Below are positions 24,884 to 45,282 of a DNA stretch of 45,997 bases, in pieces. The stretch covers positions 1 to 45,997 of the forward strand of contig JACSRM010000227.1 of NCBI GenBank assembly GCA_014879745.1, in the 5' to 3' direction. The position numbers and the translations under genes are program-made. The stretch's first letter is position 1. Every line of letters starts with the position of its first letter. This stretch comes from Burkholderiaceae bacterium (GTDB taxonomy: Bacteria > Pseudomonadota > Gammaproteobacteria > Burkholderiales > Burkholderiaceae_C). The notes beneath the pieces were generated by a model that saw only the letters and a list, made by a program, of their open reading frames with translations, had not been told where the DNA came from and made no database searches.

Positions 24884-25435
24884 TCAGCCGGGCGGCGCGA
24901 TGCCGCGCCGCTCGCGCATCGCGCGGCCGATCCGCTCGAGCGCATCGTCGCTCAACAGGCGCGCGGCCATCGGCAGCAGTTCCTTCTCCTCGCGCTCGAT
25001 GTGGCGTTCGTAGAGCGTGATCATGGGCTCGATATCCTGCGCGTCGAGCGACGCCGCGCCGCCGGCGGCGATCGCTTCGAGCTTGATGCGCACCTCCCGC
25101 CAGTGCGTCTCGAGGGCGCGATGATCGGCGGTCAGCGCGCCGACGATATCGTGCAAACAGACCGCGTCCGATCCGGCCATCGCCTCGATGAGCGCCGGAA
25201 AGAGGTCGGCCTCCTCGTCGGCATGGTGATCCCGGGCCGCGGTATCGAAATAGCGCAGCACGGCGGCCGCGGCGCTGCGCGCGGCGTCGTCGGCGCCGTG
25301 CCGGGCCAGATGCGGCACGAGGCGGCGCAAGGTGGCGCATTGGTTCTGGACGCGCTCGTGACAGGCGGCGAGCATCTCGAGCGGCACCTCGAAACTTGCG
25401 CCGGGGGCGGAACGGCCTGGCGGGCTGATCTTCAT
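24884..25435 (-). CDS. Hemerythrin domain-containing protein
   Basis: CHERVQNQC...DHHADEEADLFP...DHRALETHW...YERHIEREEKELLP. Confidence 0.88.
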   Translation of the reverse strand: MKISPPGRSAPGASFEVPLEMLAACHERVQNQCATLRRLVPHLARHGADDAARSAAAAVLRYFDTAARDHHADEEADLFPALIEAMAGSDAVCLHDIVGALTADHRALETHWREVRIKLEAIAAGGAASLDAQDIEPMITLYERHIEREEKELLPMAARLLSDDALERIGRAMRERRGIAPPG

Positions 25436-25481
25436 CGCTGCCTCCTCTGGCGTCGCGCCGGTCCGATTTGCGCTGCCGCGT

Positions 25482-25979
25482 TCAGGCCTGGACCTTGGCG
25501 GCATCCGCGCGACGCAATGCCGGCGCCGGCTTCGCACCCCGCACGGGGACGAGTCGCGATACCGGCGGCAGGGCCGATATCGGCTCGGCGATCTCGGCGA
25601 GCGTGACGCCGTCGAGCACCTTGAAATAGGCCTGCATCGCGGCGTCGAAGACCCGCTTCAGGCGGCAGGTCGCCGACAGCAGGCAGGCATTCGTGCCTTC
25701 GTCGAAGCACTCGACGATCCGGAAGTCGGTCTCGGTGCGGCGCACGATCTCGCCGACCACGATCTGCGTCGGATCCTTCAGCAGCCGCATGCCGCCGCCG
25801 CGCCCGCGCGTCGTCGCGATCACGCCCTGGCGCGCAAGGTCGTTGACGATTTTCATCAGGTGGTTCTTCGACAGATGATGATGCTCGGCGAGTTCGGCGA
25901 TCGTCACCAGCCGATCGGGATTCGCGGCGCAGAACATCAGTACCCGCAGTGTGTAGTCGGTGTAGTCGGTGAGTCGCAT
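25482..25979 (-). CDS. nsrR: Rrf2 family regulator, NsrR-type NO sensor
   Basis: MRLTDYTDYTLRVLMFCAANPDRLVTIAELAEHHHLSKNHLMKIVNDLARQGVI; cysteine cluster ECFDEGTNACLLSATCRLKRVF. Confidence 0.9.
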   Translation of the reverse strand: MRLTDYTDYTLRVLMFCAANPDRLVTIAELAEHHHLSKNHLMKIVNDLARQGVIATTRGRGGGMRLLKDPTQIVVGEIVRRTETDFRIVECFDEGTNACLLSATCRLKRVFDAAMQAYFKVLDGVTLAEIAEPISALPPVSRLVPVRGAKPAPALRRADAAKVQA

Positions 25980-26031
25980 CTGTGCCTCAAAAGCTGTACC
26001 CGGAGTGTTGCTTTAATGACGGCATCGCCTT

Positions 26032-26054
26032 AACATGCGTGCATTCTACATCTT
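26032..26054. promoter_or_regulatory. NsrR-like operator in nsrR/nnrS divergent region
   Basis: AACATGCG-N7-TACATCTT. Confidence 0.6.
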
Positions 26055-26107
26055 ATAATTTCCGGCGTGTGAAAGTCTCCGTGGCGCGCCACGCAAGCTT
26101 CGATCCC

Positions 26108-27331
26108 ATGAGCCAAGAACGACCCGCCGTGCCGATTGCCCCGCCCTCGCCTGCGCCCGCCGCAGCGCAGGCCGGACAGCCGCGCGGCCTGCCCTTGCTG
26201 CGCCTCGGCTTTCGACCGTTCTATCTCGGCGCGGCGGCCTTCGCCTGCCTCTCGGTGCCGCTGTGGCTGGCCGTCTTCTTCGGGCACCTGACGCTGGATG
26301 CGCAGATCGCACCCCTCCTGTGGCACGCCCACGAGATGCTGTTCGGCTTCGCCGCCGCCGTCATCATCGGCTTCCTGCTGACGGCCGGCAAGGCGTGGAC
26401 GGGGCTGGCGACGCCGCGCGGCGCCTTTCTCGGCGCGCTCGCCGGCCTCTGGCTCGCGGCGCGCATCGCGGCGCTGGCCGCCCCGTATGCCGTCTATGCG
26501 GTGCTCGACGTGCTGCTGCTGCCGGTGGTGGCCGCCGTGCTGCTGGACGTGCTGCTGCGCTCGGGCAACAAGCGCAACCTGCCGCTGGCCGGGATCCTCG
26601 CCCTGCTCGCGCTCGCCAATCTGTGCTTTCATCTTGCCGTGCTCGGCATCATCGGCGTGCAGCCGATGCACGCGCTGTTTGCCGCGCTCGGCCTGATCGT
26701 GATGATCGAATGCGTGATGGCCGGCCGCGTGCTGCCGTTCTTCACGATGAGCGCGACGCCCGGCCTGAAGCTCGACGAGAAGCCCTGGGTCGTGAAGGCG
26801 ACGCTCGCAACGAGCGCGCTCGCGCTCGCGCTGTGGGTGTTCGCGCCGGCCGGATGGATCGTCGCGCTCGCCTTCGTGCTCGCCGCCGCCTGCCACCTGC
26901 TGCGCCAGTGGAGCTGGCAGCCGTGGGTCACGCGCGGCAGGCCGATCCTGTGGATCCTGCATGCCGCCTATCTGTGGCTGCCGATCGGCTTCGTGCTGCT
27001 CGCCGCGGCGCAGCCCGGCTGGGTCGCCGAATCGATCGGCGTGCACGCGCTCGCGGTCGGCGCAACCGGCGGGCTGATCATCGGCATGATCACGCGCACC
27101 GCGCGTGGCCACACCGGCCGGCCGCTGAAGGTCAACCGCGTCGAGGTCAGCGCCTACGGCCTGGTGCTCGCTGCCGCGGTGGCGCGCGTGCTGCTGCCGA
27201 TCGTCGCGCCGCAGTGGCTCGTCCAGTCGCTGTGGCTCGCGGCGGTCGCGTGGAGCCTCGCTTTCCTGCTCTACCTCGTCGTCTATGGGCCGTGGCTGAT
27301 GCGCACCCGGCTCGACGGCAAGGACGGCTGA
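26108..27331 (+). CDS. nnrS: NnrS family protein
   Basis: LPLLRLGFRPFYLGAAAFA...WHAHEMLFGFAAAVIIGFLLTAGKAWTG...GGLIIGMITRTARGHTGRPL. Confidence 0.95.
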   Translation: MSQERPAVPIAPPSPAPAAAQAGQPRGLPLLRLGFRPFYLGAAAFACLSVPLWLAVFFGHLTLDAQIAPLLWHAHEMLFGFAAAVIIGFLLTAGKAWTGLATPRGAFLGALAGLWLAARIAALAAPYAVYAVLDVLLLPVVAAVLLDVLLRSGNKRNLPLAGILALLALANLCFHLAVLGIIGVQPMHALFAALGLIVMIECVMAGRVLPFFTMSATPGLKLDEKPWVVKATLATSALALALWVFAPAGWIVALAFVLAAACHLLRQWSWQPWVTRGRPILWILHAAYLWLPIGFVLLAAAQPGWVAESIGVHALAVGATGGLIIGMITRTARGHTGRPLKVNRVEVSAYGLVLAAAVARVLLPIVAPQWLVQSLWLAAVAWSLAFLLYLVVYGPWLMRTRLDGKDG

Positions 27332-27778: not shown

Positions 27779-28324
27779 TCACAGGCCGAGCGTCAGGCGC
27801 GCGGCCTCCGACATGTGGTAGCGCGTCCACGGCGGGTCGAACACCATCTCGACATTGCACTCGGCGACGCGCGGCAGCGCCAGCACTTTCTCGTAGACCT
27901 CGTTGGCGATCGCCTCGCCCATGCCGCAGCCGGGCGCGGTGAGCGTCATCTTGATCGACACCATGACCCGCTCGTCGTCGATCGGAATCACGTCGCAGAC
28001 GTAGATCAGCCCGAGCTCGACGATATTGACCGGGATCTCCGGGTCGTAGCAGGTCTTGAGCGTTTCCCAGACGAGGCCTTTCACCTCGTCGAGCTTGACG
28101 TCGGCGTGCGCCTCGACGGCGACCGGCAGCGGCTTGCCGATCGCGTCGGCGTCGCGGCCGGCGAGCCGCACCAGCTGACCCTCGACGTGCAGCGTGAAAT
28201 TGCTGCCGAGCGCCTGCGTGATCTCGGCATGTGTGCCGGCCGGCAGATCGAGCGGCGTACCGTCGGGCACGCGCTCGACCTGCACCGGCCGGTTGGTGAC
28301 GACGGGTTCGCGCCAGGATTTCAT
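27779..28324 (-). CDS. sufT: Fe-S cluster assembly protein SufT (MIP18/DUF59 type)
   Basis: VKGLVWETLKTCYDPEIPVNIVELGLIYVCDV...MTLTAPGCGMGEAIANEV. Confidence 0.92.
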   Translation of the reverse strand: MKSWREPVVTNRPVQVERVPDGTPLDLPAGTHAEITQALGSNFTLHVEGQLVRLAGRDADAIGKPLPVAVEAHADVKLDEVKGLVWETLKTCYDPEIPVNIVELGLIYVCDVIPIDDERVMVSIKMTLTAPGCGMGEAIANEVYEKVLALPRVAECNVEMVFDPPWTRYHMSEAARLTLGL

Positions 28325-28809
28325 GCTGCCTCGGTCTCGGTGCTGACCGCGCCGCTGTCGGGCGGATCGTTCAATGCATGCATCAATGCGTGCCAGCCGA
28401 GCATCGCGCACTTGATGCGGCTCGGGTAGCGGCGCACGCCGGCCAGGCTCACGAGCTTGCCCAGATGCGCCTCCTCGGGGTCGAGCTGGCCGGTCAGGAC
28501 GGCACGAAAGCGCTGCTGCAACTCCTGCGCGGCGGCGACATCGGCGCCACGCACCGCCTCCGTCATCATCGACGCCGAGGCGATGCAGATCGCACAGCCG
28601 TGGCCGCTGAAGCGGATATCGCCGACCTTGCCCTCCTTCAGATCGAGCTCGACCTTCAGCGTGTCGCCGCACGCCGGGTTGTGGCCGCGCGCTTCGTGGG
28701 TCGGCGCCGCAAGGCTGCCGAAATTACGCGGCGCGCGCTTGTGCTCGACGACGATCTCCTGGTAGAGATCGTTCTCGGCGGCCATCGCCGGGAGCTGGGC
28801 TGGATTCAT
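28321..28809 (-). CDS. sufU: Fe-S scaffold/sulfurtransferase SufU
   Basis: YQEIVVEHKRAPRNFG...NPACGDTLKV...FSGHGCAICIASASMMTEAV. Confidence 0.93.
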   Translation of the reverse strand: MNPAQLPAMAAENDLYQEIVVEHKRAPRNFGSLAAPTHEARGHNPACGDTLKVELDLKEGKVGDIRFSGHGCAICIASASMMTEAVRGADVAAAQELQQRFRAVLTGQLDPEEAHLGKLVSLAGVRRYPSRIKCAMLGWHALMHALNDPPDSGAVSTETEAA

Positions 28810-30047
28810 CGCAGCACCTCGAGCGCACGCGCGACGCCGGCGGCGAGCCGTTCGACGTCGTCATGCGTGTTGTAGACCGCGAACGACGCCCGCGTCGTCG
28901 GGCCGAGGCCGAGGTGATCGATCAACGGCTGCGCGCAGTGATGCCCGGTGCGCACCGCGATGCCCCGTTCGTCGAGCAAGGTGCCGAGGTCGTGCGGATG
29001 GACGTCGCCGGTGACGAAGGCGGCGATCGCCGACGTCTCCGCGTGCGGCGCGATCACCGTGACGCCGCCGAGCGCGGCGAGGCTTTTCACCGCGTGCGCG
29101 CGCAGCGCCGTCACGTGCGCGTCGACCGCAGCGCGGCCGAGGCCGTCGATGAAGTCCGCCGCAGCCGCCATGCCGACCGCGCCGCCGACGTTGGGCGTGC
29201 CGCCTTCGAGCCGCGCCGGCAGGCCGGCGAACTCGGCGCGCTCGAGCGTCACCCACTCGACCATGTCGCCGCCCAGGCGCAGCGGCACCAGCTTGTCGAG
29301 CGCGCTGCGCCGCCCGGCGAGCGCGCCGATCCCCATCGGGCCGTACATCTTGTGGCCGGAAAAGGCGACGAAATCGCATTCGAGCGCCGAGATATCGAGC
29401 GCCTCGTGGCTCACGGCCTGCGCCGCATCGAGCACGGTCAGTGCACCGGCCTGCTTCGCCAGTGCGAGCATCGCCTCGAACGGCGGCCGCTCGCCGGTCG
29501 CGTTGGCGCAGGCGGTGACGGCGAAGACGCGCGTGCGCGAACCGAGCAGCCGCTCGAGGGCGTCGATGTGCAGACGGCCCTCGGCGTCGGGCATCAGGAC
29601 GCGCAGCGTCGCGCCGCAGCGCCTGGCGGCAAGCTGCCACGGCACGAGATTGGCGTGGTGTTCGAGGCCGCTGACGATGATCTCGTCGCCCGTCTTCAGC
29701 ACCGCCGGCCCGTGACCCGCGAGCGACAGGCCCTGGGCGATGGTATTCAACGCCTCGGTTGTCCCGGAGGTGAAGACGAGTTCGTGCTGCGCACCGGCGC
29801 CGATATAGGCCTTGAGGCGTTCGCGCGCGGCCTCGAAATCGTCCGTCGCGCGCTGGCTCAGCGTATGCACGCCGCGGTGGATATTGGCGCGGTCGCGCGA
29901 CTCGAACTCGCGCATCGCCGCCATCACCGCGAGCGGCATCTGCGTCGTCGCCGCATTGTCGAGATAGACGAGCGGCGCGCCGTTGATGCTCTGCGCGAGC
30001 ACCGGAAAGCTGTCGGTGAGAGCGGCAAGCGGCAGACGTTCACCCAT
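28806..30047 (-). CDS. sufS: Cysteine desulfurase SufS
   Basis: YLDNAATTQMP...FTSGTTEALN...SGHKMYGPMGIGAL...RTGHHCAQPL. Confidence 0.95.
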   Translation of the reverse strand: MGERLPLAALTDSFPVLAQSINGAPLVYLDNAATTQMPLAVMAAMREFESRDRANIHRGVHTLSQRATDDFEAARERLKAYIGAGAQHELVFTSGTTEALNTIAQGLSLAGHGPAVLKTGDEIIVSGLEHHANLVPWQLAARRCGATLRVLMPDAEGRLHIDALERLLGSRTRVFAVTACANATGERPPFEAMLALAKQAGALTVLDAAQAVSHEALDISALECDFVAFSGHKMYGPMGIGALAGRRSALDKLVPLRLGGDMVEWVTLERAEFAGLPARLEGGTPNVGGAVGMAAAADFIDGLGRAAVDAHVTALRAHAVKSLAALGGVTVIAPHAETSAIAAFVTGDVHPHDLGTLLDERGIAVRTGHHCAQPLIDHLGLGPTTRASFAVYNTHDDVERLAAGVARALEVLR

Positions 30048-31350
30048 GGGGAGCCTCCTGCACCCGCTGCGGCGCCGCCTGGCGCGCCGATGCCGCCAGA
30101 TGGTCGGCCACCGCGCGCTCGAGCAGCGCCTCGACGCCGAGCGACTCCAGCAGCTCGGGGTCGTCCAGGCCGCGTGCGAGAACGGCATGCGCCATGCCAT
30201 TCACGATCATCGCCCGCGCGTCGCGCTCGTCGATGCCGCGCTGGCGGGCGTAGAAGATCGCATCCTCGGGCATCGCGCCCCAGGTCGCGCCGTGCGCGGC
30301 CTGCACCTTGTCGTGATGAATCTCGAGGTGCGGACGCAGCACGAGCTTGGGTTGCCCGCCGGTCGGGATGCCGACCAATTTCTGGCGCAGCGCCGCCTCG
30401 TCGGCGCCGGGGGCGATCCGGCTGTGGGCATTGACGACGATGCGCGCGCCGGCATCGGCCAGCGCGAGCGCTTCGACGCTGCTTTGCGATGCCTCGCCGA
30501 CGTGTGCGACGCGCACCTGCTGTTCGAGCGCGGCGTGGGCGGCGAACAGCACCGCGGCGCTGCGCGCCTCGGCCTTCGCGCCATGCAGCTCGACGACCGT
30601 GCGCTGCAGGTGATAGCTGCTGCCCGAGGCGATCATCGCCTGCTCGTAGCGCGCCGCGGCGGCAAGCCGGGCGTCGATATGGTGCACGATGCGATCGCCG
30701 GCGGCCGGTGCGACGACGCGCAGATGCTGCAGCGCCGCGCCCTCCTCGAGCCGCACGTGGACCTGCATGTTCTGCACCAGGTCGCGCTCGCAGGCACTGC
30801 CCTGGTCGTCGCTTGCCGCGATGCGCTCGTGCGATTCGACGAGCACGCACTGCACGCCGGCCGCGACCTCGATCACGAGCAGCGGCGCCTCGACCGCGCT
30901 GCGCGGCTGGCGGCGCAACTGGAGCCAGACCGTCTCGCGATGCCGCGCCGCGCCCACATCGCCGCCGATGCGCACGCGCAGCCCCTGGCGGCACAGCGCG
31001 CGATGCGCCCAGGCGAGCGGTGCCGCGTCGTCGGCATCGACGCCGTCGCCGGGTTCGGCCAGACCGGCGAACAGCTCGGCGCGCTGCTCCGGATCGGCGG
31101 CATCGAGCCAGCGCGCCTCGACGCGCCCCGGCGGCTTGTGGCCGAGCGGATGCAGCGTCCAGCCGGCGCCGGCCAGCGGCGAGGCGTCGCACGCCTGCTC
31201 GCAGTTGGAATCGGCTTCGCCGAGCCAGACCTCGGCCGCGGGCGGCGGCAGGTGGCGGAAATCCTCCGCGTTGCGCGCGATCCAGCCCAGCCTCGCGATC
31301 CGCTCGCGGGCAAAAAGTGCATCGGCGCGTGCGCTGTCCATCGTCGTCAT
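30040..31350 (-). CDS. sufD: Fe-S cluster assembly protein SufD
   Basis: LVLRPHLEIHHDKVQAAHGATWGAMPEDAIFYARQRGI. Confidence 0.93.
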   Translation of the reverse strand: MTTMDSARADALFARERIARLGWIARNAEDFRHLPPPAAEVWLGEADSNCEQACDASPLAGAGWTLHPLGHKPPGRVEARWLDAADPEQRAELFAGLAEPGDGVDADDAAPLAWAHRALCRQGLRVRIGGDVGAARHRETVWLQLRRQPRSAVEAPLLVIEVAAGVQCVLVESHERIAASDDQGSACERDLVQNMQVHVRLEEGAALQHLRVVAPAAGDRIVHHIDARLAAAARYEQAMIASGSSYHLQRTVVELHGAKAEARSAAVLFAAHAALEQQVRVAHVGEASQSSVEALALADAGARIVVNAHSRIAPGADEAALRQKLVGIPTGGQPKLVLRPHLEIHHDKVQAAHGATWGAMPEDAIFYARQRGIDERDARAMIVNGMAHAVLARGLDDPELLESLGVEALLERAVADHLAASARQAAPQRVQEAPHG

Positions 31351-31379
31351 ACCTTCACAGTCGTTGCCGCGGCGCCCAT

Positions 31380-32150
31380 TCAGGCCACCGCCGGTTCGCC
31401 CGCACGCGCGAAGCCGGTGCGCGCGATATCGTGCGCCAGCGAGAGGCCGCCGGTCTCGGCGATGCATCCCTCGTGCAGGCGCAGCACGGCATCGGGCGCG
31501 AGCGACTCGATCATCTGCAGATAGTGCGAGACGACGACGAATGCCGTGCCCTTCGCGCGCAGTTCCTGGACCAGCGCGACGACGGCGCGCACGCCGTCGA
31601 TATCCATGCCGGAGTCGATCTCGTCGAGCACCGCCAGCTTGGGCGCGAGCAGCGCCATCTGCATCAGCTCGTTGCGCTTGCGCTCGCCGCCGGAGAAGCC
31701 ATCGTTCACCGGCCGGTTGAGCATCGCCTCCGGCAGCCCGAGGCGCTTGGCGGCATCGCGCGCGCCGCCGAGGAAGTCGAATGCATCGAGCGCCGTCTCG
31801 CCGCGCGACTCGCGCACCGCGTTGACGGCACTGCGGATGAAGAGGTTGTTCTTCACCCCCGGGATATCGGGCGGCGACTGGAACGACAGGAAGAAGCCGG
31901 CGCGGGCGCGTTCCTGTGCGTTCATCGCGAGCAGGTCCTTGCCGTCGAAACGCACCTCGCCGCCCATCACGCGGTAGCGCGGATGGCCGGCGAGCGTCAG
32001 GCCGAGCGTGCTCTTGCCGCTGCCGTTGGCGCCCATCAGCACGAACAGCGCGCCGGCCGGCACGTCCAGCGTGACCGACTTCAGCACGGTGCGCTCGCCG
32101 ACATCGACGCGCAGGTCGCGCACGTGCAGCAAGGGATCGGTGGTCTTCAT
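31380..32150 (-). CDS. sufC: Fe-S cluster assembly ATPase SufC
   Basis: MGANGSGKSTLGLTLAGHPRY; FSGGERKRNELMQMALL; DEIDSGMDIDG. Confidence 0.96.
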   Translation of the reverse strand: MKTTDPLLHVRDLRVDVGERTVLKSVTLDVPAGALFVLMGANGSGKSTLGLTLAGHPRYRVMGGEVRFDGKDLLAMNAQERARAGFFLSFQSPPDIPGVKNNLFIRSAVNAVRESRGETALDAFDFLGGARDAAKRLGLPEAMLNRPVNDGFSGGERKRNELMQMALLAPKLAVLDEIDSGMDIDGVRAVVALVQELRAKGTAFVVVSHYLQMIESLAPDAVLRLHEGCIAETGGLSLAHDIARTGFARAGEPAVA

Positions 32151-32182
32151 CGTTGGTCCTTGTTTCTCGAGTTGCGCGGCGT

Positions 32183-33637
<1,455 letters not shown>

Positions 33638-34093: not shown

Positions 34094-36028
34094 TCAGGCG
34101 CTGGTCGATGCCGCGGACGGCCGGGTGACGGCCGACGGCACGAAGGCGTCGGTGAAGCAAAAGCCCTCGCCCAGCCCCTGCTCGATGAAGGCCGGCACCG
34201 CCGCCTCGACCATCTTGACCGAGCCGCAGACGTAGACCTCGTGCTGGCGCAAGTCGGGGAAGTCGGCCAGCATCGCCTCGTGGACGAGCCCGGTGCGCCC
34301 GCTCCAATGGCCCTGCGGATCCGGCTCCGAGAGGACCGGAACGAAGCGGAAGCACGGGTTCTCGCGCTGCCACTGCTCGGCAAGCGCGATCGCATACAGA
34401 TCGTCCTGCTTGCGAACACCCCAGTAGAGCCACATCGGCCGCGTGAGGCCGCGCGCGAAGGCATCCTCGACGATGCTCTTGATCGGCGCGAAGCCGGTCG
34501 CACCGGCAACGAACAGGATCGGGTGCGCGCTGTCGCTGAGCGTGAAGTGGCCGAGCGGCCCCTCGATGCGCAGCGTGTCGCCGACCTTCATCGACGTGAA
34601 GACGGCGCCGGTGAAGCGCCCGCCCGGGATGCGCCGCACGTGCAGTTCGATCTGGCCTTGCTGCTGCGGCGGGTTGGCGAACGAGAACGCGCGCCGTTGC
34701 CCGTCTTCGAGGATGATGTTGATGTACTGGCCGGCCTTGAACGGCAGCGTCGCGCCCTGCGGGAGCGAGAGCATGAGCCGGATCACCTCGGGCGCGAGGC
34801 GCTCCATGCTCTCGACGCGGACATCGAACTCGTGGATCGCGGCGAGTGCGGCGCGCGCGTCGGCCTCGACCTCGATGACGACGTCGGAGAGCGCCGTCGC
34901 GCAGCACATCAAGGCCTGGCCGCGGGCACGCGCGGCCTCGGGCAACGCACTCGGCTGGTAGGGCCCGAGATCGACGTTGCCGTGCAGCACGGTGCACAGG
35001 CACACGCCGCAGCCGCCGTTGCGGCACTCGTACGGCAGTTCGAGGCCATTGCGCAACCCGGCGTCGAGCAGCGTCTCGCCGCTGCGCACCGGCAGCGGAT
35101 CGCTCGTGCCGCTCGCGTGGTGCACCTCGAGATGAAAGTCCTGCGCGCGCTTGCGGCCGAACTTCGGCGGCAGCCACGGCAGCAGCACGAGCACGCCGGT
35201 GGCGCCGACGAGCAGCGCCCAGACCTGGCCGATTGGCCAGACCGAGACGAGCGGCAGCACGGCGAGGTAGAACCAGTCGAACTGCAGCGTCGTCACCGCC
35301 TCGCCGAGGTTGGCCGCGCCGCCCTGGCTCAGCACCGGACGCAGCGCCGACAGCAGCAGCAGCGTGATGATCACGCTTGTCATGATCGGCCGCGGCGGGT
35401 TGGTGCGCGCCTTCGGCACGCGCTGGACGTGGACCCATTGCACGAGCAGCAGCACGAGCGAGATGCCGATGTGCATGAACGCGAGCAGCGAGAAGAAGCG
35501 GTCGTTGACGCTGTCGGGGTAGATGAAGTTGCGCATCAGCGTGCCGCCGAAGCCGGGCAACCAGTCGAACCACTCGAAGGCAGCGACGATCGTGTACTGC
35601 GCGAGGTGGTCCCACGGCAGCATGAAGCCGGTGATGCCCGCCGAGTAGACGAGCCAGATCAGCACCACGCCGGTCACCCACGAAAACCAGCGGAAACCGC
35701 GGAAGTGGTTGAACGCGAAGTGGCGCACCATGTGGATCAGCATCGTGATGACGAAGCCGTCCGAGGCGTAGCGGTGGATGCTGCGCAGCACGCCGCCGGC
35801 GAACCACTGCCCGTGCGTCAGGCTCTCGACCGAGGTATAGGCGTCGGGGACGCCGGTCTCGAAGAACGCATACAGGTAGAGCCCGGTTGCGGCGACGACC
35901 CAGAACAGGAAGAAGCTGATCGCGCCGAGGTGGTAGAGCGGATTGAGCCGGTCGCCGAAGGCGGCGTTGAAGACCGCCTCGACCCGCATGAACAGCCATT
36001 GCAGGCCGCGTTGCAGAGCTTTGAGCAT
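34094..36028 (-). CDS. Fusion: cytochrome b N-terminal domain + [2Fe-2S] ferredoxin + FAD/NAD(P)-binding reductase
   Basis: MRVEAVFNAAFGDRLNPLYHLGAISFFLFW...cytochrome b helices; LPYECRNGGCGVCLCTV; RAFSFANPP; ILFVAGATGFAPIKSIVEDA. Confidence 0.88.
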   Translation of the reverse strand: MLKALQRGLQWLFMRVEAVFNAAFGDRLNPLYHLGAISFFLFWVVAATGLYLYAFFETGVPDAYTSVESLTHGQWFAGGVLRSIHRYASDGFVITMLIHMVRHFAFNHFRGFRWFSWVTGVVLIWLVYSAGITGFMLPWDHLAQYTIVAAFEWFDWLPGFGGTLMRNFIYPDSVNDRFFSLLAFMHIGISLVLLLVQWVHVQRVPKARTNPPRPIMTSVIITLLLLSALRPVLSQGGAANLGEAVTTLQFDWFYLAVLPLVSVWPIGQVWALLVGATGVLVLLPWLPPKFGRKRAQDFHLEVHHASGTSDPLPVRSGETLLDAGLRNGLELPYECRNGGCGVCLCTVLHGNVDLGPYQPSALPEAARARGQALMCCATALSDVVIEVEADARAALAAIHEFDVRVESMERLAPEVIRLMLSLPQGATLPFKAGQYINIILEDGQRRAFSFANPPQQQGQIELHVRRIPGGRFTGAVFTSMKVGDTLRIEGPLGHFTLSDSAHPILFVAGATGFAPIKSIVEDAFARGLTRPMWLYWGVRKQDDLYAIALAEQWQRENPCFRFVPVLSEPDPQGHWSGRTGLVHEAMLADFPDLRQHEVYVCGSVKMVEAAVPAFIEQGLGEGFCFTDAFVPSAVTRPSAASTSA

Positions 36029-36254: not shown

Positions 36255-37685
36255 TCAGCTGCCGGACCCGGGGTCGGTCCTGCGCCGCAGCGCGCCGATG
36301 ACGACGACGACGAACAGCAGGCCGCCGACGATGGCGATCAGGCCGCCCAGCCCCATCAGCCCCATGCCGGCGATCTCGGCGCTGCTGCGCAGCACCTGCT
36401 CGGTACCGGCGACCTTGCGCTGCACGCCGTAGCCGCCCGACCAGACGAGGCCGACGATGTGCAGCAGCTGCCCGAAGCCGTAGAGCGCGGGCTGCCAGGT
36501 CGCGAGCCGGCCCTGCGGCGTGCCGTAACCCATGCGCGGCAGCAGGTGGTAGACGAGCCCCATCAGCGCGAGCGTGACGCCGACGATGCAGCCGTGGTAG
36601 TGCGCCGGGATGCGCACGTTGCTGCCGCTGATGAAGATGCCGATCACGCCGCCGGCGCCGAACAGCAGGACCGAGGCCACCAGCGCCGAGCGCAGCGGCC
36701 GCGCCTGCAGCGTCGCCGCCGGTGCGCCGGCAAGCGCGGCGACGACGGCGAGCGCGATCGGCACGATCGCGACCCCGCCGCCCAGGCGCATCGCCCAGGT
36801 CAGCGCGTCGCGGTGCTCGACCGACGCGATATCGTGCGCGAGGTAGGCATACGGCGTGACGAAGACGCTGACGAGCGCGAGCATGAACATCAGCAACGTG
36901 ACGCGCGGGCTGAGCGCGACGCGCGCGCCCGACGCCCCGGCGAGCCAGAGCCAGGCGACGAGCATCAGCAGCGTCCACGTGAACTGCAGCGCATGGCCGC
37001 CGCCCCAGAACAGGATCTCGTAGTACGCGCGGCCCTCGAGCGTGAGCGGCAGCACGGCGAACGACCAGCCGAAGGCGAGCAGCGCGACGGCGGTCGCGAC
37101 GACGCTCGCGTTCAGCCCGAAGCGCAGCGCGCCGCCGCCGTCGAAGCTCGCGCCCAGGCGCGGCGCGAGCCACAGCGAGCGCAGCACGAGCAGCGCGGTG
37201 CCGACCGCGAACAGCAGCAGCCCGCCGAGGAAGGCCGCGCCGTCGAGCACCGGGATGTAGTTGGCCATCACCGCCTCGCCGCTGCCGACGAAGGGCGCCA
37301 GCGACATCGCGAGCGCGCCGGCCGCGGCCAGGCCGAGCGCGGTCCACGCCAGACCGAGCGCGCGCGGCGCGCCGATCAGGCTCCACAGCAGGCCGGCGAT
37401 GGCAATGAACCAGACGAGGACCGAAAGATCGACGTGGACGACGAGCGCGACGCGAAAGAAGTCGGCGCTCGGCAGCAGCTTGTTGACCCCCGGCGTTCGC
37501 GCCAGCACGAGCAGGACCGAGAACACGCCGGACAGGACGAGCGCACCGAGACCGAGTGCGAGCCAGCCGCGCGCCAGGTCGCGGCGGGCGTCGGCCGGCA
37601 CCGCGAGCGTGTATTCGGTGTCGTGGCGCGCCTGCGGCAGCGCGGCTGCGCGCCCGGCGGGCACGGGGGCGAGGTGCGCGCTCAT
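36255..37685 (-). CDS. Divergent heme-copper oxidase subunit I homologue with atypical CuB site
   Basis: VVHVDLSVLVWF, FWGGGHALQFTW, IPAHYHGCIVGVTLALMGLVYHLLPRMGYG; no HH pair at the CuB position. Confidence 0.85.
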   Translation of the reverse strand: MSAHLAPVPAGRAAALPQARHDTEYTLAVPADARRDLARGWLALGLGALVLSGVFSVLLVLARTPGVNKLLPSADFFRVALVVHVDLSVLVWFIAIAGLLWSLIGAPRALGLAWTALGLAAAGALAMSLAPFVGSGEAVMANYIPVLDGAAFLGGLLLFAVGTALLVLRSLWLAPRLGASFDGGGALRFGLNASVVATAVALLAFGWSFAVLPLTLEGRAYYEILFWGGGHALQFTWTLLMLVAWLWLAGASGARVALSPRVTLLMFMLALVSVFVTPYAYLAHDIASVEHRDALTWAMRLGGGVAIVPIALAVVAALAGAPAATLQARPLRSALVASVLLFGAGGVIGIFISGSNVRIPAHYHGCIVGVTLALMGLVYHLLPRMGYGTPQGRLATWQPALYGFGQLLHIVGLVWSGGYGVQRKVAGTEQVLRSSAEIAGMGLMGLGGLIAIVGGLLFVVVVIGALRRRTDPGSGS

Positions 37686-38200
37686 CGGAAGGTGATCCCG
37701 CCGCGCTGCGGATCGAAGTCGATCACCAGGATCTGCGCCGGCGCGAGCGTGACCGTCTTCTCGCTCTGGTAGTCGAAGCCGTCCTTGCGCGCATTGTCGT
37801 TGAGCCGCACCGCGAGCTGATGCGTGCCGGCCGGCACCGTCAGGCGCTGGTAGACCGACGAGGCGCCGTCGCGCGACAGGCCCGAGGGCGGCGCGACGTG
37901 GCGGATCGCCGGCTTGCCGTCGATATCGACCTCGACGACGACCGGCGAGCGCTCGCGCCCGCACTTCATCGGCGTGCGCATGTTGGGCGGCAGCTTGGCA
38001 AGCTCCTCCGGCGTGAGCTTGCGGCACTCGTCGACGCGCTGCGCCGCATGCGTGAAGCTGAGCTTGATCAAGGCCTCGTCGTCGGCCAGATGGCGGTACG
38101 TCGGCCAATGCGAGAAGACGCCGATGATGAGCGCGAAGACCCCATACAGCAGGGCCTGGCCGACCCAGGAGAAGCGCTTGCGCGCTGGAGTTTCATCCAT
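37682..38200 (-). CDS. One-TM hypothetical protein of respiratory operon
   Basis: MDETPARKRFSWVGQALLYGVFALIIGVFSHWPTYRHL...; ATGA/ATGGATGA overlaps with both neighbours. Confidence 0.75.
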   Translation of the reverse strand: MDETPARKRFSWVGQALLYGVFALIIGVFSHWPTYRHLADDEALIKLSFTHAAQRVDECRKLTPEELAKLPPNMRTPMKCGRERSPVVVEVDIDGKPAIRHVAPPSGLSRDGASSVYQRLTVPAGTHQLAVRLNDNARKDGFDYQSEKTVTLAPAQILVIDFDPQRGGITFR

Positions 38201-39740
38201 ACCGAAGTTTCTCATGTGAAGGCCCCGCGGCGGCCGATACCCGCAGTCCGAGTACGGCAAGCGCCGCCTCGACGGCGGCCTCGTCGCCGGCGTCGGCCCA
38301 GACCGTTGCCACCCGTTCGGCCGGCACCGAACGGCGCAGATGCGGCTCGCGCAGACCGAGCAGGCGTTCGCGCGTCCAGCGCTGACCGAGGCGGAAGGTG
38401 CAGCCGCCTTCGCTGCACCCGGTGACGAGCACGCCATCGGCGCCGCCGCGCAACGCATATTCGACGAACGAAGGCGGCAGCATGCCGGTGCAGATCAGGC
38501 TGAACGCGGCGACGCCGGCGCCGGCGAGCGATTCGACGCGCGCGCCGTGATCGCAGCCGATGACGACAAGCCTCGGTCGATCGTCCGGCATGCGTGCAAG
38601 CGCCGCTTCCACGCGCTCGCGCAGGTCGTTGATCGGCGACTGCGGCATGTCGATGCCGGTGACGAGCGCGGCGCCCTTGCGAAACGGCGTCGACGACGGG
38701 CAGGCGCCGACGCAGATGCCGCAGCTCGCGCACAGGTCGGCGTCGACCTGCGCCATCTGGCGCCCGATGCGTCCGTTCGGGTGCGTGACCATCGTGATCG
38801 CCGTATACGGGCAGTCCTCGAAGCAGCGCCGGCAGCCGTTGCAGTTGGCGGGGTCGACGACCGCCACCGGCGCCGCCGCAGGCTGTGGCAGGAAGGGCAG
38901 CGCGAAGAGCGCGATCAGCGTGCCGGCGAGGAGCAGCCACACCGCGCCCGCCGAAGTCGCGTAGACGAGCGGATGGATGAAGAGCAGCCACCAGTCGAGC
39001 GCGAGCGTCGCCGGCACGACCGAGAGGTCGGCCGGGCCCTGGCTGTGCACCGGCAGCACGAGCGCCACCGCGATGAGCGACGCCGTGACCCCGATCGCGA
39101 GCCGCAGCGGCGGAAAGGCCTCGGCACGCGCCAGACGCTGGATGTGAAACCACATCGCGAAGACGATGAAGAGCGCCACCCCGAGATGGACGAAGATGAA
39201 GAGCGAGAACAGCCGGTCGCCGACGCTTTCGACGCCGATGAAGTTGCGCGTCAGCGGCGAGCCGAAGATCGGCAGCCAGTCGAGGAATTCGGCGGTCGCG
39301 ATCGCCGAGAACTGGCCGAGCTTGTCCCAGTTCAGCCAGAAGCCGCCGATCGCGGAGGCGAATGCAAGCGGCAGCAGCGGCACGCCGGTCAGCCACGAGA
39401 AGCGGCGAACACCGCTGTAGCGGCCGAACAGCCATTCGCGCAGCAGATGCGCGAGCATCGTGACGACGAACGCATCGGCCGCATAGCGATGCAGGCTGCG
39501 CAGCCAGCCGCCGAGAAACCATTGCTCGCGTGAAAGTCCGTCGATCGAGACGTAGGCCCCGGTGGCCGAGGTATCGAGCACGGCATAGAGGTAGATGCCG
39601 GTCACCGCGAGCAGCCAGAAGCACAGGAAGGCGAGCGCGCCGAGGTGTCGCAGCGGGTTGAGCGCACCGCCGCCGACGACGCGGTCGAGTGCCGTCTCGG
39701 CGCGCTGCCAGAGCGCGCCGCAACGCTCGCGCGGATTCAT
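38193..39740 (-). CDS. Fusion: cytochrome b N-terminal domain + two 4Fe-4S motifs + MvhD-like iron-sulfur domain
   Basis: NPLRHLGALAFLCFWLLAVTGIYLY; CNGCRRCFEDCPYTAI and CASCGICVGACPSSTP; SLICTGMLPPSFVEYALRGGADGVLVTGCSEGGCTFRLGQRW. Confidence 0.88.
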   Translation of the reverse strand: MNPRERCGALWQRAETALDRVVGGGALNPLRHLGALAFLCFWLLAVTGIYLYAVLDTSATGAYVSIDGLSREQWFLGGWLRSLHRYAADAFVVTMLAHLLREWLFGRYSGVRRFSWLTGVPLLPLAFASAIGGFWLNWDKLGQFSAIATAEFLDWLPIFGSPLTRNFIGVESVGDRLFSLFIFVHLGVALFIVFAMWFHIQRLARAEAFPPLRLAIGVTASLIAVALVLPVHSQGPADLSVVPATLALDWWLLFIHPLVYATSAGAVWLLLAGTLIALFALPFLPQPAAAPVAVVDPANCNGCRRCFEDCPYTAITMVTHPNGRIGRQMAQVDADLCASCGICVGACPSSTPFRKGAALVTGIDMPQSPINDLRERVEAALARMPDDRPRLVVIGCDHGARVESLAGAGVAAFSLICTGMLPPSFVEYALRGGADGVLVTGCSEGGCTFRLGQRWTRERLLGLREPHLRRSVPAERVATVWADAGDEAAVEAALAVLGLRVSAAAGPSHEKLRYG

Positions 39741-40642
39741 CCCTCGGCGCTCGCGCGCGGTGGAAACTGACCGTTGGCCTTCGGCTTCTGCGCCGCGCCT
39801 TGCGTGCGCCGCAGGCGGCGGCTGGCGCGCAATTCGCCGACGAAGAACCAGAGCATCGCGATGACGAAGGTCACGCCGCCGGCGATCTCGAACGCGAGCG
39901 CGTAGCTGACGCGATATTCGCCGGTCGCCGGATCGTAGATCGAGCACAGGATGCGCACGCGGTCGACGAGGTCGGCCAGGTCGAGCCGCTGCGGCAGCGG
40001 CTCGTTGCGCAGCAGCTGGCGGATCGGCTCGGCGAGTTCATCGGCGCTGAAGTCTTCACCGTACACCTGGCGGTAGATGCGGCCCTGGCCATCGACCACC
40101 GTGACCTGCAGCAGGTGGTCGAAGCCCGCCTGGGTTGGCGTGTAGGCGAATCCGAAGTCGCGCGTCAGCGCCTCGACGGCCGACGGATGCGGGCTCAGGA
40201 ACTCCCAATTCGCCGCGGTGATGCGTTGCTGCGCGGCAAACGCCTTCATCGACGCCGGCGAATCGGCCGGTAGATTGAAGCCGATGCTGACGATGTTGTA
40301 CTGCCGCGGGTCCATGCTGCGGCCCATGCCCTCGATCGCCGCGGCGATCGCGCGCGTGCTCGTCGGGCAGACCTGGAAGCAGCCGGTGTACATGAAATTC
40401 ACGAGCAGCGGCTTGCCGCGGTAGTCGGCGAGGCGCACCGGCTTGCCGGCGCGATCGAGCAGCGTGTAGTCGCCGATCTTGCTGCCGATCGCGCCCTGGC
40501 TGATGCGCAGCGCCTCGGCCGGGTCGAGCGTGGCGCGCGAGACGGGTGCCTCGTCGGCGACCGCGCTGGCGACGAGCCCGGCCAGACAGATTCCGAGCAG
40601 GGTGACCAAACCCCGGCAACTGCGGGCGGCAGGCTTGTGCAT
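39737..40642 (-). CDS. SCO1/SenC family copper chaperone with C-terminal TM extension
   Basis: LLVNFMYTGCFQVCPTSTRAIAAAIEGM; FAYTPTQAGFDHLLQVTVVDGQGRIYRQVYG. Confidence 0.88.
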   Translation of the reverse strand: MHKPAARSCRGLVTLLGICLAGLVASAVADEAPVSRATLDPAEALRISQGAIGSKIGDYTLLDRAGKPVRLADYRGKPLLVNFMYTGCFQVCPTSTRAIAAAIEGMGRSMDPRQYNIVSIGFNLPADSPASMKAFAAQQRITAANWEFLSPHPSAVEALTRDFGFAYTPTQAGFDHLLQVTVVDGQGRIYRQVYGEDFSADELAEPIRQLLRNEPLPQRLDLADLVDRVRILCSIYDPATGEYRVSYALAFEIAGGVTFVIAMLWFFVGELRASRRLRRTQGAAQKPKANGQFPPRASAEG

Positions 40643-40652
40643 GCCGCAAATC

Positions 40653-41552
40653 CTAGCGCAACACGCCGTCGAGGCTCGCTCCGGCCAGCACCAGACTGAG
40701 TTGAAGCAGCGATGCGAAGAAGGAAGCCATCGCGGTCTTGCGGCTTGGCCGGCGCGCCAGCAGCCAGGACTTGTGCAGGAACACCGCGCCGCCGATGGCC
40801 GCTCCCGCGAAGTACCAGACTCCGGCGCCGAAGAGCACCGGCAGCAGCGACGCCGACACCAGTGCGACCGTGCTCCAGAAGACGGCCTGGGCCGCGCGCT
40901 GCGTGCCGACGACGACCGGCAGCATCGGCACGCCGGCTGCGGCATAGTCATCCTGGTTCGCGATCGCGAGACTCCAGAAGTGCGGCGGCGTCCACAGGAA
41001 GAGCACGAGCGCGAGCAGCAGTGGGAGCGCTCCGATCGCGGGGTCGACCGCAGCGGCGCCGGCGAGCACCGCGAAGCTGCCGGCAAGGCCGCCGACGACG
41101 ATATTGAGCCAGCTGCGCCGCTTGAGCCACACGGTATAGACGACCGCGTAGAAAAAGGCGCCGAGGAAGACATAGAGCGCGGCCCAGACGTTGAGCGCCC
41201 ACCACGCCGCGGCAACCGACAACGCGAGCAATGCACCGATCACGACCAGCCAGAGCGGAGTATGCGGCAGCGCGCCGGTGACGAAGGCGCGCTTGCGGGT
41301 GCGCGCCATGAGCCGATCGGACTCGGCTTCGACATACTGGTTGAATGCGCCTGCGCTCGCCGACGCCACCATCACCGAGACCGCGAGCACGAGCACCTGC
41401 GCCAGGCTCAGCGCCGGGCCCGGCGTGAAGGCAAAGCCGACCAGCGCGGTCAGCATGATCATCACGCCGATCCGCAGCTTGAACAGCCCGAGCACGTCGC
41501 GCACCAGCCGGGCCGGCGTGCGGGGCGCGAGTGCAAGGGCCGGCTTCATCAC
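40653..41552 (-). CDS. ctaB: Heme o synthase (protoheme IX farnesyltransferase)
   Basis: ASAGAFNQYVEAESDRLMARTRKRAFVTG; multiple TM; WTPPHFWSLAI. Confidence 0.95.
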   Translation of the reverse strand: MMKPALALAPRTPARLVRDVLGLFKLRIGVMIMLTALVGFAFTPGPALSLAQVLVLAVSVMVASASAGAFNQYVEAESDRLMARTRKRAFVTGALPHTPLWLVVIGALLALSVAAAWWALNVWAALYVFLGAFFYAVVYTVWLKRRSWLNIVVGGLAGSFAVLAGAAAVDPAIGALPLLLALVLFLWTPPHFWSLAIANQDDYAAAGVPMLPVVVGTQRAAQAVFWSTVALVSASLLPVLFGAGVWYFAGAAIGGAVFLHKSWLLARRPSRKTAMASFFASLLQLSLVLAGASLDGVLR

Positions 41553-41562
41553 CGCGTTCCGG

Positions 41563-43263
41563 TCAGGACAGGCCCCAGACCTGCGACAGGTACTTCCAGT
41601 TGATGAAGTAGTACAGCACGAAGGCGACGAAGAACACCATCGTCAGCACGAAGGTGCCGGGAGCGACGAAGCCGGCCGAGCCGTGGCTCTGTACCGCGAC
41701 GGTCGGCGCCGCGCGCGCCAGACGCACCGGCTTGGCACTCGTCGCGCCGCCTTCGAGTTTCTTGCCCCACAGCAGCGAACCGACCGTGATGTAGATGTAG
41801 ATCGCGCCGCCGACTATCGCGGCGACGCCGCCGACGCCGACCATTCCCATCATCAGGTAGGCCGCACCCGGCCATTCGTAGGCCATCGGCGCGCCGGCGA
41901 AGGCCATGTCCCAGTGCCGGCGGGCGACGCCGAGCGTGCCGGCGCCCATCATCACGAGGCAGAAGAAATACATCGAGAAGCCGAAGATGTACGGCTGCAG
42001 CCTGGCCAGCCCCGGGTTGATCATCTCGCGGCGGAACAGCACCGGGATCAGGTAGTAGGTCAACGCCATGAACGTCAGCGTCGTTCCGACGACGACCGTG
42101 GCGTGGAAGTGCCCCGGCACGTAGATCGTGTTGTGGATCAGCATGTTGAGCTGTTCGGTGCCCATCATCACGCCGGTGATGCCGCCCAGGAAGCCGAAGC
42201 CGACGAGCGCGATGAATACGCCCGAGAACACCGGGTTGCCCCACGGCGCCTTGCGCAGCCACTCGAAGAGGCCCTTGTTGTAGCCCTTGGCGCGCTGCGC
42301 GACTTCCATCGCGCCCGGCACGCTGAGCGCGTGGATCATCGACGCGAGCACCGCGAAGTACATGAAGTAGCTCGTATTGACGACCTTCCACGAGGTGCTG
42401 ACGCCCGGATCGGCGAGGATGTGGTGGGCGCTGGCGAGCTGCAGGAAGACGATGTAGAGCAGGAAGGCACCACGGCTCACGCGCTCGGACATCGGCTTCG
42501 CGCCGAACGCGATCGCCGCGACCAGATACCAGATCGAGATGTGCGCCGCGACGTTGATCTGCTGCGACGAGTGCCCGAACGCCCACCAGATGACGCGATA
42601 GGCGAGCGGATCGACGTTCTCGATCAGGCCGATCGACATCAGCCAGGTCGGAATCAGGATCATCGCGCCCGAGACGATCGTGAAGACGGCGATGATCGCC
42701 GCCGTCGTCGCGCCGAACGTGACGAGCGGCACCGAGCCGTCGTAGGTGTTGTCGCGCTTGGCGACGACGAGCGTGCCGAAAAAGACGAAGCACGCGATCA
42801 GCGCGCCGACGGCGAACAGGATCAGGCCGAGATAGAAGCTCTGCGCCGCCATCATCGGCACGTAGCTCGTCATCATCACGCTCGACTCGCCGGCATAGAC
42901 GGCGTAGTTGTTGACGACGGCGCCGATCACCATCAGTGCGAAAGCGAACCAGGCGATCTTCGGCGTCGCGATCCGGCAGCGCAGCAGCACCGACGACGCG
43001 AAGTACAGCACCGCGATCTCGAAGAAGATGATCCAGAAGATCAGCATGTTGATGCCGTGCGCGGTGAGCACTTGATAGAAGGTGTCGGCCTCGAGCCAGT
43101 GGATCGCGGGCCACCGCGTCAACACGACGCCGATCGCGAGAATGCCGCCGATCAGCAGGCAGACGACGGCGACGAACGCGTTGGCGAAGATCAGCTTCTC
43201 GGCGTTGGCCTCGAATTGCAGGCCCGACCTGGGGCAGGTCCGGTACGTGATGGCGCTGGACAT
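41563..43263 (-). CDS. ba3-like heme-copper enzyme subunit I with GHSSQQ in place of GHPxVY (candidate NO-reductase type)
   Basis: VLTAHGINMLIFW, WWAFGHSSQQINVAAHISIWY, ASAHHILADPG, NTIYVPGHFHATVVVG. Confidence 0.9.
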   Translation of the reverse strand: MSSAITYRTCPRSGLQFEANAEKLIFANAFVAVVCLLIGGILAIGVVLTRWPAIHWLEADTFYQVLTAHGINMLIFWIIFFEIAVLYFASSVLLRCRIATPKIAWFAFALMVIGAVVNNYAVYAGESSVMMTSYVPMMAAQSFYLGLILFAVGALIACFVFFGTLVVAKRDNTYDGSVPLVTFGATTAAIIAVFTIVSGAMILIPTWLMSIGLIENVDPLAYRVIWWAFGHSSQQINVAAHISIWYLVAAIAFGAKPMSERVSRGAFLLYIVFLQLASAHHILADPGVSTSWKVVNTSYFMYFAVLASMIHALSVPGAMEVAQRAKGYNKGLFEWLRKAPWGNPVFSGVFIALVGFGFLGGITGVMMGTEQLNMLIHNTIYVPGHFHATVVVGTTLTFMALTYYLIPVLFRREMINPGLARLQPYIFGFSMYFFCLVMMGAGTLGVARRHWDMAFAGAPMAYEWPGAAYLMMGMVGVGGVAAIVGGAIYIYITVGSLLWGKKLEGGATSAKPVRLARAAPTVAVQSHGSAGFVAPGTFVLTMVFFVAFVLYYFINWKYLSQVWGLS

Positions 43264-43276
43264 TTGTGCTCCTCTG

Positions 43277-43816
43277 TTATTTCACGTACATGTGGCTCAC
43301 CATCGAGTGATGGTTGATGCCGCAGAACTCGTTGCACACGATCGAGAACCGGCCGGACTGGTTCGGCGTGACGTTGACGACATGCTCGAAGCCGGGAACG
43401 ACCTGGATGTTGATATTGGTCGGCTGCAGCGAGAAGCCGTGGTTGTAGTCGAGCGAGGAAAGGTGCAGCCGGTAGGTCTTGCCCTTCTCGAGCTCGATGA
43501 TCGGCCACCAGCTCCACAGCCGCGCGACGAGGTAGACGTCGCCCCCCGGCGGCGGCGCGACGACCGGGATCTTGTCCTCGCCTTCGGTGCGCACCGTGTA
43601 CTTGTCGACCACCGCCTGCGCCTTCGCGACGAAGGCATCGGGCGTGATGCGGTAGGTCTCGGTCGACAGGTTCTGCTTGCCGTAGATGTGCCAGCCGACC
43701 ATCATGAAGAACATCACCATGCACCAGGCGAAGGCGATCGCGATCCAGGTGCCTTCGACCCGGTCCAGCGGATGCTTCCACCACAGTCTCTCTGCCGGTG
43801 GCAGGATTGCGCTCAT
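43277..43816 (-). CDS. Subunit II with intact CuA site
   Basis: SSLDYNHGFSLQPTNINIQVVPG...IVCNEFCGINHHSM. Confidence 0.93.
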   Translation of the reverse strand: MSAILPPAERLWWKHPLDRVEGTWIAIAFAWCMVMFFMMVGWHIYGKQNLSTETYRITPDAFVAKAQAVVDKYTVRTEGEDKIPVVAPPPGGDVYLVARLWSWWPIIELEKGKTYRLHLSSLDYNHGFSLQPTNINIQVVPGFEHVVNVTPNQSGRFSIVCNEFCGINHHSMVSHMYVK

Positions 43817-44018: not shown

Positions 44019-44328
44019 GAATGTCCTCCTTCGGTCGGGGTGCGGCGCATGAAGCAATCCGGCGGCATTCTGCTGGCGGTGCCGTCAACTTGATTTGACC
44101 CAGCACAAGAACGCGGAGATTGCCGGCCGGCATCCGGGCGCCCCCTAGGGATGACCACTACGCCCTGCGTTGCGCCGGAATCACACCCGACAATCGGTCG
44201 ACACCTCCGATCCGAAACCGCAATGAAGCGAACTCACGCGCACCCCGTTGGCCGGCCCCCGAACGCGACGCGACGGCCGCGGCGCCGCTGGAAGCCTCGA
44301 AGATTTCCGGCCGCCGGGAGGGTTTGAC

Positions 44329-45282
44329 GTGGCCTCGCCCGACCGCAGCCGCACGCTGTTGCGCCGCATGGCGCTGCTGCTCACCGTGCTCGTGCTCGTG
44401 ATCACGAGCCTGAGCGCCTACATCCGGCTGTCGCGCGCCGGGCTGTCGTGTGCCGACTGGCCGCAGTGCTACGGCGAGCGCCTGCGCCAGGCGCAGCAGG
44501 GCGTCTCGGCGACGGCCGGCGACAGCGACGCGGTCGCCGCGGCGCGCTTCGCGCATCGCATCGTCGCCAGCGCGGCCCTGCTGATCATCGTCGCGATCGT
44601 CGCCGTGTGCTTTTCCGCGCGCCCGGTGTGGCGGGCGGAGGGCGGCGTCGCGCTGGCGCTGCTCGCGCTCGCGCTCGGCCTCGCCGTGCTCGGACGATGG
44701 TCCAGCGACGCGCGCGTGCCGGCGGTCGCACTCGGCAATCTGCTGGGCGGCTTCGCGATGTTCGCGCTGTGCTGGCGCCTGCTGCTGGCTCCTGGCGCCG
44801 CACTGGCGCGCGGTGCGCGCGTGTGGGCGATGCTTTGCGTGCTGCTGCTCGCGACACAGATCGCGCTCGGCGGACTGGTCAGCGCCACCTACGCGGCGAC
44901 GAGTTGCGGCGGCTTCGCCGATTGCCTGTCGGCGGCGCGCAGCCTGCCCTGGAGTGCGCTCGATCCGTGGCGCGAACCGGTGCTCGACGGCGCCGTGCCG
45001 ACGAATGCGTCGGGCGCGCTGGCCCAGACCCTGCACCGCGGCGCGGCGCTGCTCGTGCTGGTCGCGACCGCGCCGCTCGCGCTCGTGGCCTGGCGCAGCC
45101 GCCGCCGTCTGGCCAGCGCGCTGCTGCTGGTGCTGCTGGCCGGCACGGCCGGCCTCGGCATCGCGATGGCGCGCCACGGCCCGACGCTCGCGATGGCGCT
45201 GGCGCACAACCTCGCCGCCGCCCTGCTGCTGGCGACGCTGTTCGCGTTGGCGCGCGGGCCCGCGACAGCCGACGAGCGTTGA
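44329..45282 (+). CDS. ctaA: COX15/CtaA family heme A synthase (GTG start)
   Basis: SLSAYIRLSRAGLSCADWPQCYGER; 8-TM pattern; HR and GLVSATY motifs. Confidence 0.85.
   Translation: MASPDRSRTLLRRMALLLTVLVLVITSLSAYIRLSRAGLSCADWPQCYGERLRQAQQGVSATAGDSDAVAAARFAHRIVASAALLIIVAIVAVCFSARPVWRAEGGVALALLALALGLAVLGRWSSDARVPAVALGNLLGGFAMFALCWRLLLAPGAALARGARVWAMLCVLLLATQIALGGLVSATYAATSCGGFADCLSAARSLPWSALDPWREPVLDGAVPTNASGALAQTLHRGAALLVLVATAPLALVAWRSRRRLASALLLVLLAGTAGLGIAMARHGPTLAMALAHNLAAALLLATLFALARGPATADER

Follow-up and report, generated by a model that had tools for sequence, protein, structure and literature searches.

Within the window, that is, the whole stretch of 45,997 nucleotides analysed here, the gene at 36255-37685 on the minus strand encodes a heme-copper oxidase (HCO) subunit I homologue without CuB, termed HCO2. 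Judged from sequence, it most likely represents a maintained, widespread and conserved CuB-free HCO family, and our leading, still tentative, reading of the member encoded here is a heme-only redox partner of a CuA/eNOR-type NO reductase (NOR). Heme-copper oxidoreductases are taken to be defined by their binuclear heme-CuB (or heme-FeB) site, and HCO2-type genes are likely called cytochrome oxidases by annotation pipelines. A literature search, with the primary eNOR paper (Murali et al. 2024, PNAS) outside its coverage, returned no description of a CuB-less HCO paralogue accompanying eNOR.

HCO2 occupies one open frame running from 37685 to 36255 (476 aa), with an ATG start that overlaps the stop of the preceding gene by 4 bp. 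The Pfam COX1 profile (PF00115) matched residues 39-438 at 47 bits (cut-off 34.8), and AlphaFold2, supplied with a 51-row alignment, returned a confident model (mean pLDDT 93.4, pTM 0.92), for which Foldseek listed Thermus thermophilus ba3 chains as top PDB matches (E about 1e-9, TMq 0.67-0.76). Both the sequence profile and the fold of an HCO superfamily subunit I were thus found, and the modelling check proposed in the original prediction yielded a ba3-type fold. Complementarily, an HCO2 profile searched against PDB sequences recovered no subunits but those of the B family (best E about 2e-14), while the single sequence gave no match there; a B-family subunit I fold is accordingly indicated for HCO2. 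NnrS, a heme-copper protein of NO metabolism, resembles HCO2 as a membrane-bound heme protein of 12-TM type with a link to NO, and its gene is present in the window, but HCO2 matches PF00115, the sole hit of the Pfam search, and not the NnrS profile PF05940.

Inspection of the ligand positions (all codons on the minus strand) revealed a complete set of candidate heme ligands next to a largely missing copper site. H84 in helix II (VVHVDLS; 37434-37436) stands at a low-spin heme ligand position, and H362-Y363-H364 of the AHYH motif (36594-36602) provides the proximal His of the high-spin heme and the second low-spin heme ligand, respectively; the propionate-binding pair is kept as R423-K424. Among the three CuB ligands, one from helix VI and two from helix VII, only the helix VI His is left, namely H231 (GGGHALQF; 36993-36995). 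In the adjoining pair Q234-F235 (36981-36986), Phe235 (H+4) takes the place of the cross-linked Tyr, where HCO1, the intact HCO of the same operon, has Gln. Finally, A280-Y281 (TPYAYLAHD; 36843-36848) falls on the CuB HisHis of HCO1 and the B-family oxidases. From this pattern we infer that HCO2 would hold two hemes and no copper: a bis-His low-spin heme on H84 and H364 and a second heme on H362, with H231, Q234 and Tyr281 occupying the distal side instead of CuB.

The placement of helix VII was examined in several alignments. A profile alignment of HCO2 with HCO1 ran ungapped through helices VI and VII, pairing H231 with H231, F235 with Q235, A280 with H280, Y281 with H281 and D285 with D285, and the same columns resulted when HCO2 was aligned separately with B-family enzymes of haloarchaea, Deinococcus and Burkholderia. 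In the profile-to-PDB match, helix VII was shifted by one residue, which still left the HH pair without His. We placed A280-Y281 on the HH pair, disfavouring the shifted alignment, because the spacing from HisVI to HH is equal in both proteins (49/50, landing on Ala-Tyr in HCO2), D285 is conserved and the two other alignments agree. The original prediction, which had noted retained helix II, helix VI and AHYH histidines, a replaced HH pair and a Phe at H+4, and had considered an O2 reductase unlikely, was borne out on all these points. Its own counter-scenario, a CuB triad recoverable from the LAHD/VEHR region, found no backing, as H284 is His in just 52 of 91 orthologues, with Phe or Tyr prevailing at this residue in distant members, and H291 is not conserved family-wide.

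HCO2 fits none of the catalytic classes with which it was compared. The T. thermophilus ba3 enzyme, its best structural match, shares the heme ligands, the Trp at H-4 and the propionate Arg pair (R-K in HCO2), but HCO2 lacks the CuB HisHis and the cross-linked Tyr at H+4 that characterize B-family (ba3) oxygen reductases; a ba3-type oxygen reductase was therefore rejected for HCO2. The Glu at H+4 and the FeB His ligands of cNOR and qNOR are absent as well (Phe235, no HH). eNOR is nearest by both tree (98/98) and profile (99.9%), shares the operon and agrees in heme ligands, HisVI and the Gln at H+3, whereas HCO2 lacks the intact helix-VII HisHis and the H+4 Gln, both present in HCO1, and has a shorter segment before AHYH, the stretch from G349 to H362 counting 8 residues fewer than in HCO1.

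Conservation indicated that this unusual pattern is maintained. Across about 90 unique orthologues, H84, H231, H362 and H364 were invariant, as the close-homologue alignment suggested in the original prediction was meant to reveal, and F235, P278, R423 and K424 were likewise common to the set; residue 281 was Tyr in 90 of 91. In a distant set of 45 rows from other classes of the phylum, some of them the same gene fetched twice, H84, W227, H231, Q234, H362, H364 and R423 were kept in every row. Q234 occurred in all members and F235 in nearly all. The first helix-VII His was missing throughout the distant set; the second was present in about 27 of the 45 rows and otherwise replaced by Tyr, Phe, Val or Glu. 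None of the orthologue frames examined contained internal stops, and pairwise dN/dS was 0.22-0.35 by the Nei-Gojobori method, which is rough at this G+C. Conservation and dN/dS together rule out a pseudogene. The expression 'degraded CuB centre' in the original prediction thus holds for the lost ligands, but should not be taken to mean decay, given the broad conserved family. In a tree of 44 sequences, HCO2 formed a single clade (100/100), sister to eNOR with the ba3-type enzymes outside; we regard the sister relation as probable only, because a long stem leads to HCO2 and the outgroup was thinly sampled.

HCO1 (41563-43263, minus strand; PF00115, 208 bits) is an intact, eNOR-like B-family-type subunit I with HisVI, HisHis and AHFH-type heme ligands. 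It carries GHSSQQ, with Gln where the cross-linked Tyr would stand, and the HSSQQ motif was found in 77 of 86 HCO1 family members screened. Gln at this position marks eNOR, whereas oxygen reductases have Tyr, sNOR has Asn and gNOR has Asp (Table A4, PMC8756737). Next to HCO1 lies cox2 (43277-43816, minus strand; PF00116), which encodes a CuA subunit II with the complete CuA motif CNEFCGINHHSM, its ligands invariant in the alignment. A Thermus plasmid homologue of HCO1 (46% identity) was found close to nitrite reductase and cytochrome P460 genes. Because of the Gln signature, the CuA subunit and the nir linkage, we read HCO1/cox2 as probably an eNOR-type NO reductase. The original prediction had overlooked that intact HCO1 shows the eNOR signature rather than that of a ba3 enzyme; with its Gln, HCO1 is unlikely to be a ba3-type oxygen reductase.

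Scoring gene order in beta- and gammaproteobacterial loci on sufficiently long contigs revealed a recurrent arrangement: cox2, HCO1, ctaB, sco, a cytochrome b-4Fe4S-FlpD fusion, a small one-TM protein, HCO2 and a cytochrome b-2Fe2S-FNR fusion. Some loci lacked one cytochrome b fusion or ctaB, and some had a different order. In the window, the other operon genes all lie on the minus strand: ctaB/cyoE for heme O synthase (40653-41552; TIGR01473, 264 bits, cut-off 210), a SCO1/SenC-type gene (39737-40642, start inferred; PF02630), and two fusions of a cytochrome b N-terminal half with cytosolic FeS/flavin modules, which were near-constant operon mates of HCO2. One joins the cytochrome b half to two 4Fe-4S modules and an FlpD/MvhD-type domain (38193-39740, start inferred; PF00033, Fer4, PF02662), with conserved cytochrome b His pairs and Cys motifs; the other joins it to a 2Fe-2S ferredoxin and an FAD/NAD(P)H reductase (34094-36028, start inferred; PF00033, PF00111, PF00970, PF00175), with conserved His pairs H108/H122 and H209/H223. 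Such fusions of a cytochrome b half with a cytosolic redox module are unusual. A divergent COX15/CtaA-family (heme A synthase-like) gene follows at 44248-45282 on the plus strand (start uncertain; PF02628, 102.9 bits), and where the upstream sequence sufficed, ctaA lay within 1.5 kb of cox2 in this orientation in 42 of 55 loci. The small protein directly upstream of HCO2 (37682-38215, minus strand), a near-constant member of eNOR operons, combines a single TM helix with a beta domain on the periplasmic side (AF2 pLDDT 95.4); two of its Cys (C64, C85) are nearly invariant, and many of its charged residues fully so. It gave no Pfam or NCBIfam match and no convincing PDB match. Its interpretation as a degenerate subunit II was unsupported (hhalign against CuA subunits 1.9%, no PDB match), and the label 'FixH-like' was without support.

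We then assessed co-occurrence, with Fisher tests that ignore relatedness, so that all p-values are too small although the pattern is strong. Within the window's family, 19 of 151 genomes carried HCO2. All 19 encoded nirS or nirK (nirS in 18, nirK in the other one), compared with 32 of 132 genomes without HCO2 (8e-11), and nosZ was found in 10 of 19 versus 21 of 132 (9e-4). Among 399 genomes of the phylum, HCO2 was present in 29 of 30 eNOR genomes (8e-27), the exception being 69% complete, and in 29 further genomes without an eNOR match. The same operon occurs without HCO2 on a Defluviimonas plasmid, indicating that HCO2 is not strictly required, and HCO2 itself was not found among PLSDB plasmids. 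A family that keeps its hemes and accompanies eNOR this closely, and a CuA subunit and ctaA elsewhere, would show the HCO scaffold reused without copper.

Together, these data favour, with a confidence that stays short of even, the heme-only redox partner of the eNOR-type NOR. We prefer this reading because of the ligand pattern and its conservation on a ba3-type AF2 fold, the operon conserved across beta- and gammaproteobacteria, in which HCO1 has the eNOR Gln and a CuA subunit, the co-occurrence of HCO2 with eNOR and nirS/nirK, the near-constant cytochrome b fusions, and the NnrS, Rrf2 regulator and hemerythrin genes in the window. The HCO2 operon probably makes an NO-reducing enzyme. HCO2 may form a physical complex with eNOR and the cytochrome b proteins, and electrons would pass via HCO2 between the cytochrome b/ferredoxin/NAD(P)H modules and the NO reductase; NO might also bind its second heme. 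HCO2 thereby bears on how electrons reach NO reduction in eNOR-type denitrifiers. Counting against the redox-partner reading, H231 and Q234 of the distal pocket are invariant, which suggests a role beyond the passive transfer of electrons. The electron-transfer, NO-binding and different-metal roles put forward in the original prediction likewise have the standing of putative roles.

HCO2 genes outside eNOR genomes widen the picture. In 24 such genomes, PF02239 (NirS/NirF/NirN-type, cytochrome d1-family) matched in 4 and nnrS was found in 19, while NirK exceeded its cut-off in none of the 24. The few nir matches, despite the 19 with nnrS, weaken an NO-only role for the whole family and indicate that it is broader than denitrification. 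Moreover, the eNOR-free genes often lie beside ctaA and CuA subunit II genes, so a purely eNOR-specific role cannot cover the whole family. ctaA was located within 300 bp of HCO2 in 15 of 23 eNOR-free HCO2 genomes (24 were taken; the 23 are those where it was found). Two loci (L161, L197) show the direct order CuA-II, HCO2, ctaA; in another (L164), HCO2 overlaps CuA subunit II, and the locus of family f39 combines an A-type COX1, ctaB, sco, a separate B-type CuA subunit II, a cytochrome b561, HCO2 and ctaA. The CuA motif was intact in all 12 subunits II beside HCO2 in these relatives. Three further loci (L165, L166, L172) place long HCO2 relatives beside an 11-heme MtrC-like cytochrome, ResB-/CcsA-type genes and an NHL-repeat lipoprotein.

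This CuA-II pairing keeps in play an independent copper-free terminal reductase, in which CuA electrons would be used at the CuB-free second heme on NO, O2 or another small molecule. The direct neighbourhood of CuA subunit II and HCO2 in L161, L197 and L164 and the invariance of H231, Q234 and W227 on the distal side speak for it. We nevertheless consider it unlikely, though the strongest of the competing explanations: most of the family f47 members listed seem to carry HCO2 on its own, the window operon has one CuA subunit only, which HCO1 needs, and we know of no chemistry for a CuB-free site of this kind. Rather unlikely, too, is an undescribed HCO class in which a CuA subunit would pass electrons to a two-heme core lacking copper, and in which the reaction would take place at just one heme, under a His/Gln/Tyr (or His) distal pocket. 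If true, such a class would be the first catalytic HCO branch wholly without CuB/FeB, and in denitrifiers it would join an NAD(P)H-linked NO-reducing supercomplex.

The ctaA linkage, in turn, points to a partner in heme A maturation, which would hold new heme A or supply or accept electrons for CtaA. Both the close ctaA in eNOR-free genomes and the divergent ctaA next to cox2 in betaproteobacterial-type loci fit this idea, as does the failure to find SURF1 in 17 of 18 genomes that carry HCO2 but fall outside the window's family, a count made without a control group and accompanied by SURF1 in 5 of 5 genomes inside it. We hold this role to be doubtful. Both genome G212 and the genome of the window itself have SURF1 next to HCO2, a CuA partner would be unexpected for a holdase, and most aa3-containing bacteria produce heme A without HCO2. 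Furthermore, ctaA normally lies close to the genes of any heme-A enzyme, and HCO2 may therefore be no more than a user of heme A.

Much less probable is that HCO2 still builds a metal site from H231, residue 281 (Tyr, or His in relatives), Q234 or another donor. The invariance of H231 and the His at 281 in 27 of 45 distant rows would allow for it, but the window's HCO2, whose clade has Tyr there, keeps one of three His, the first helix-VII His is missing in every member, and some members have Phe, Glu or Val at 281. An inert or sensory remnant, suggested by the lost catalytic copper ligands, is least credible of all in view of purifying selection, the invariance of both heme ligands and distal residues, the persistence of HCO2 in several classes and its fixed operon position.

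The wider window contains a hemerythrin gene, an Rrf2 regulator gene (25482-25979, minus strand; nearest to the RirA and NsrR models, below their cut-offs) and the divergent nnrS (25982-27331, plus strand). This group (24884-27331) lies about 9 kb from HCO2, with a SUF cluster (27779-33637) standing between them, and is likely an NO-response cluster. Further upstream, a gene for the cbb3 assembly protein CcoG (5349-6797, minus strand) and, elsewhere in the window, those for a CusS-like sensor kinase, an RND pump and a copper-type P-ATPase suggest a copper-handling region. Finally, the same genome encodes two additional HCOs: one on C360 (L005, 1396-3180, minus strand) is of B-family type, with Asn at H+4 (GHMYIN), the sNOR/CuA-NOR signature, and one on C10 (L006, 198-2339, plus strand) carries AHNLME, with Glu at H+4, and LHHF, making it a putative further NOR-like or undescribed HCO.
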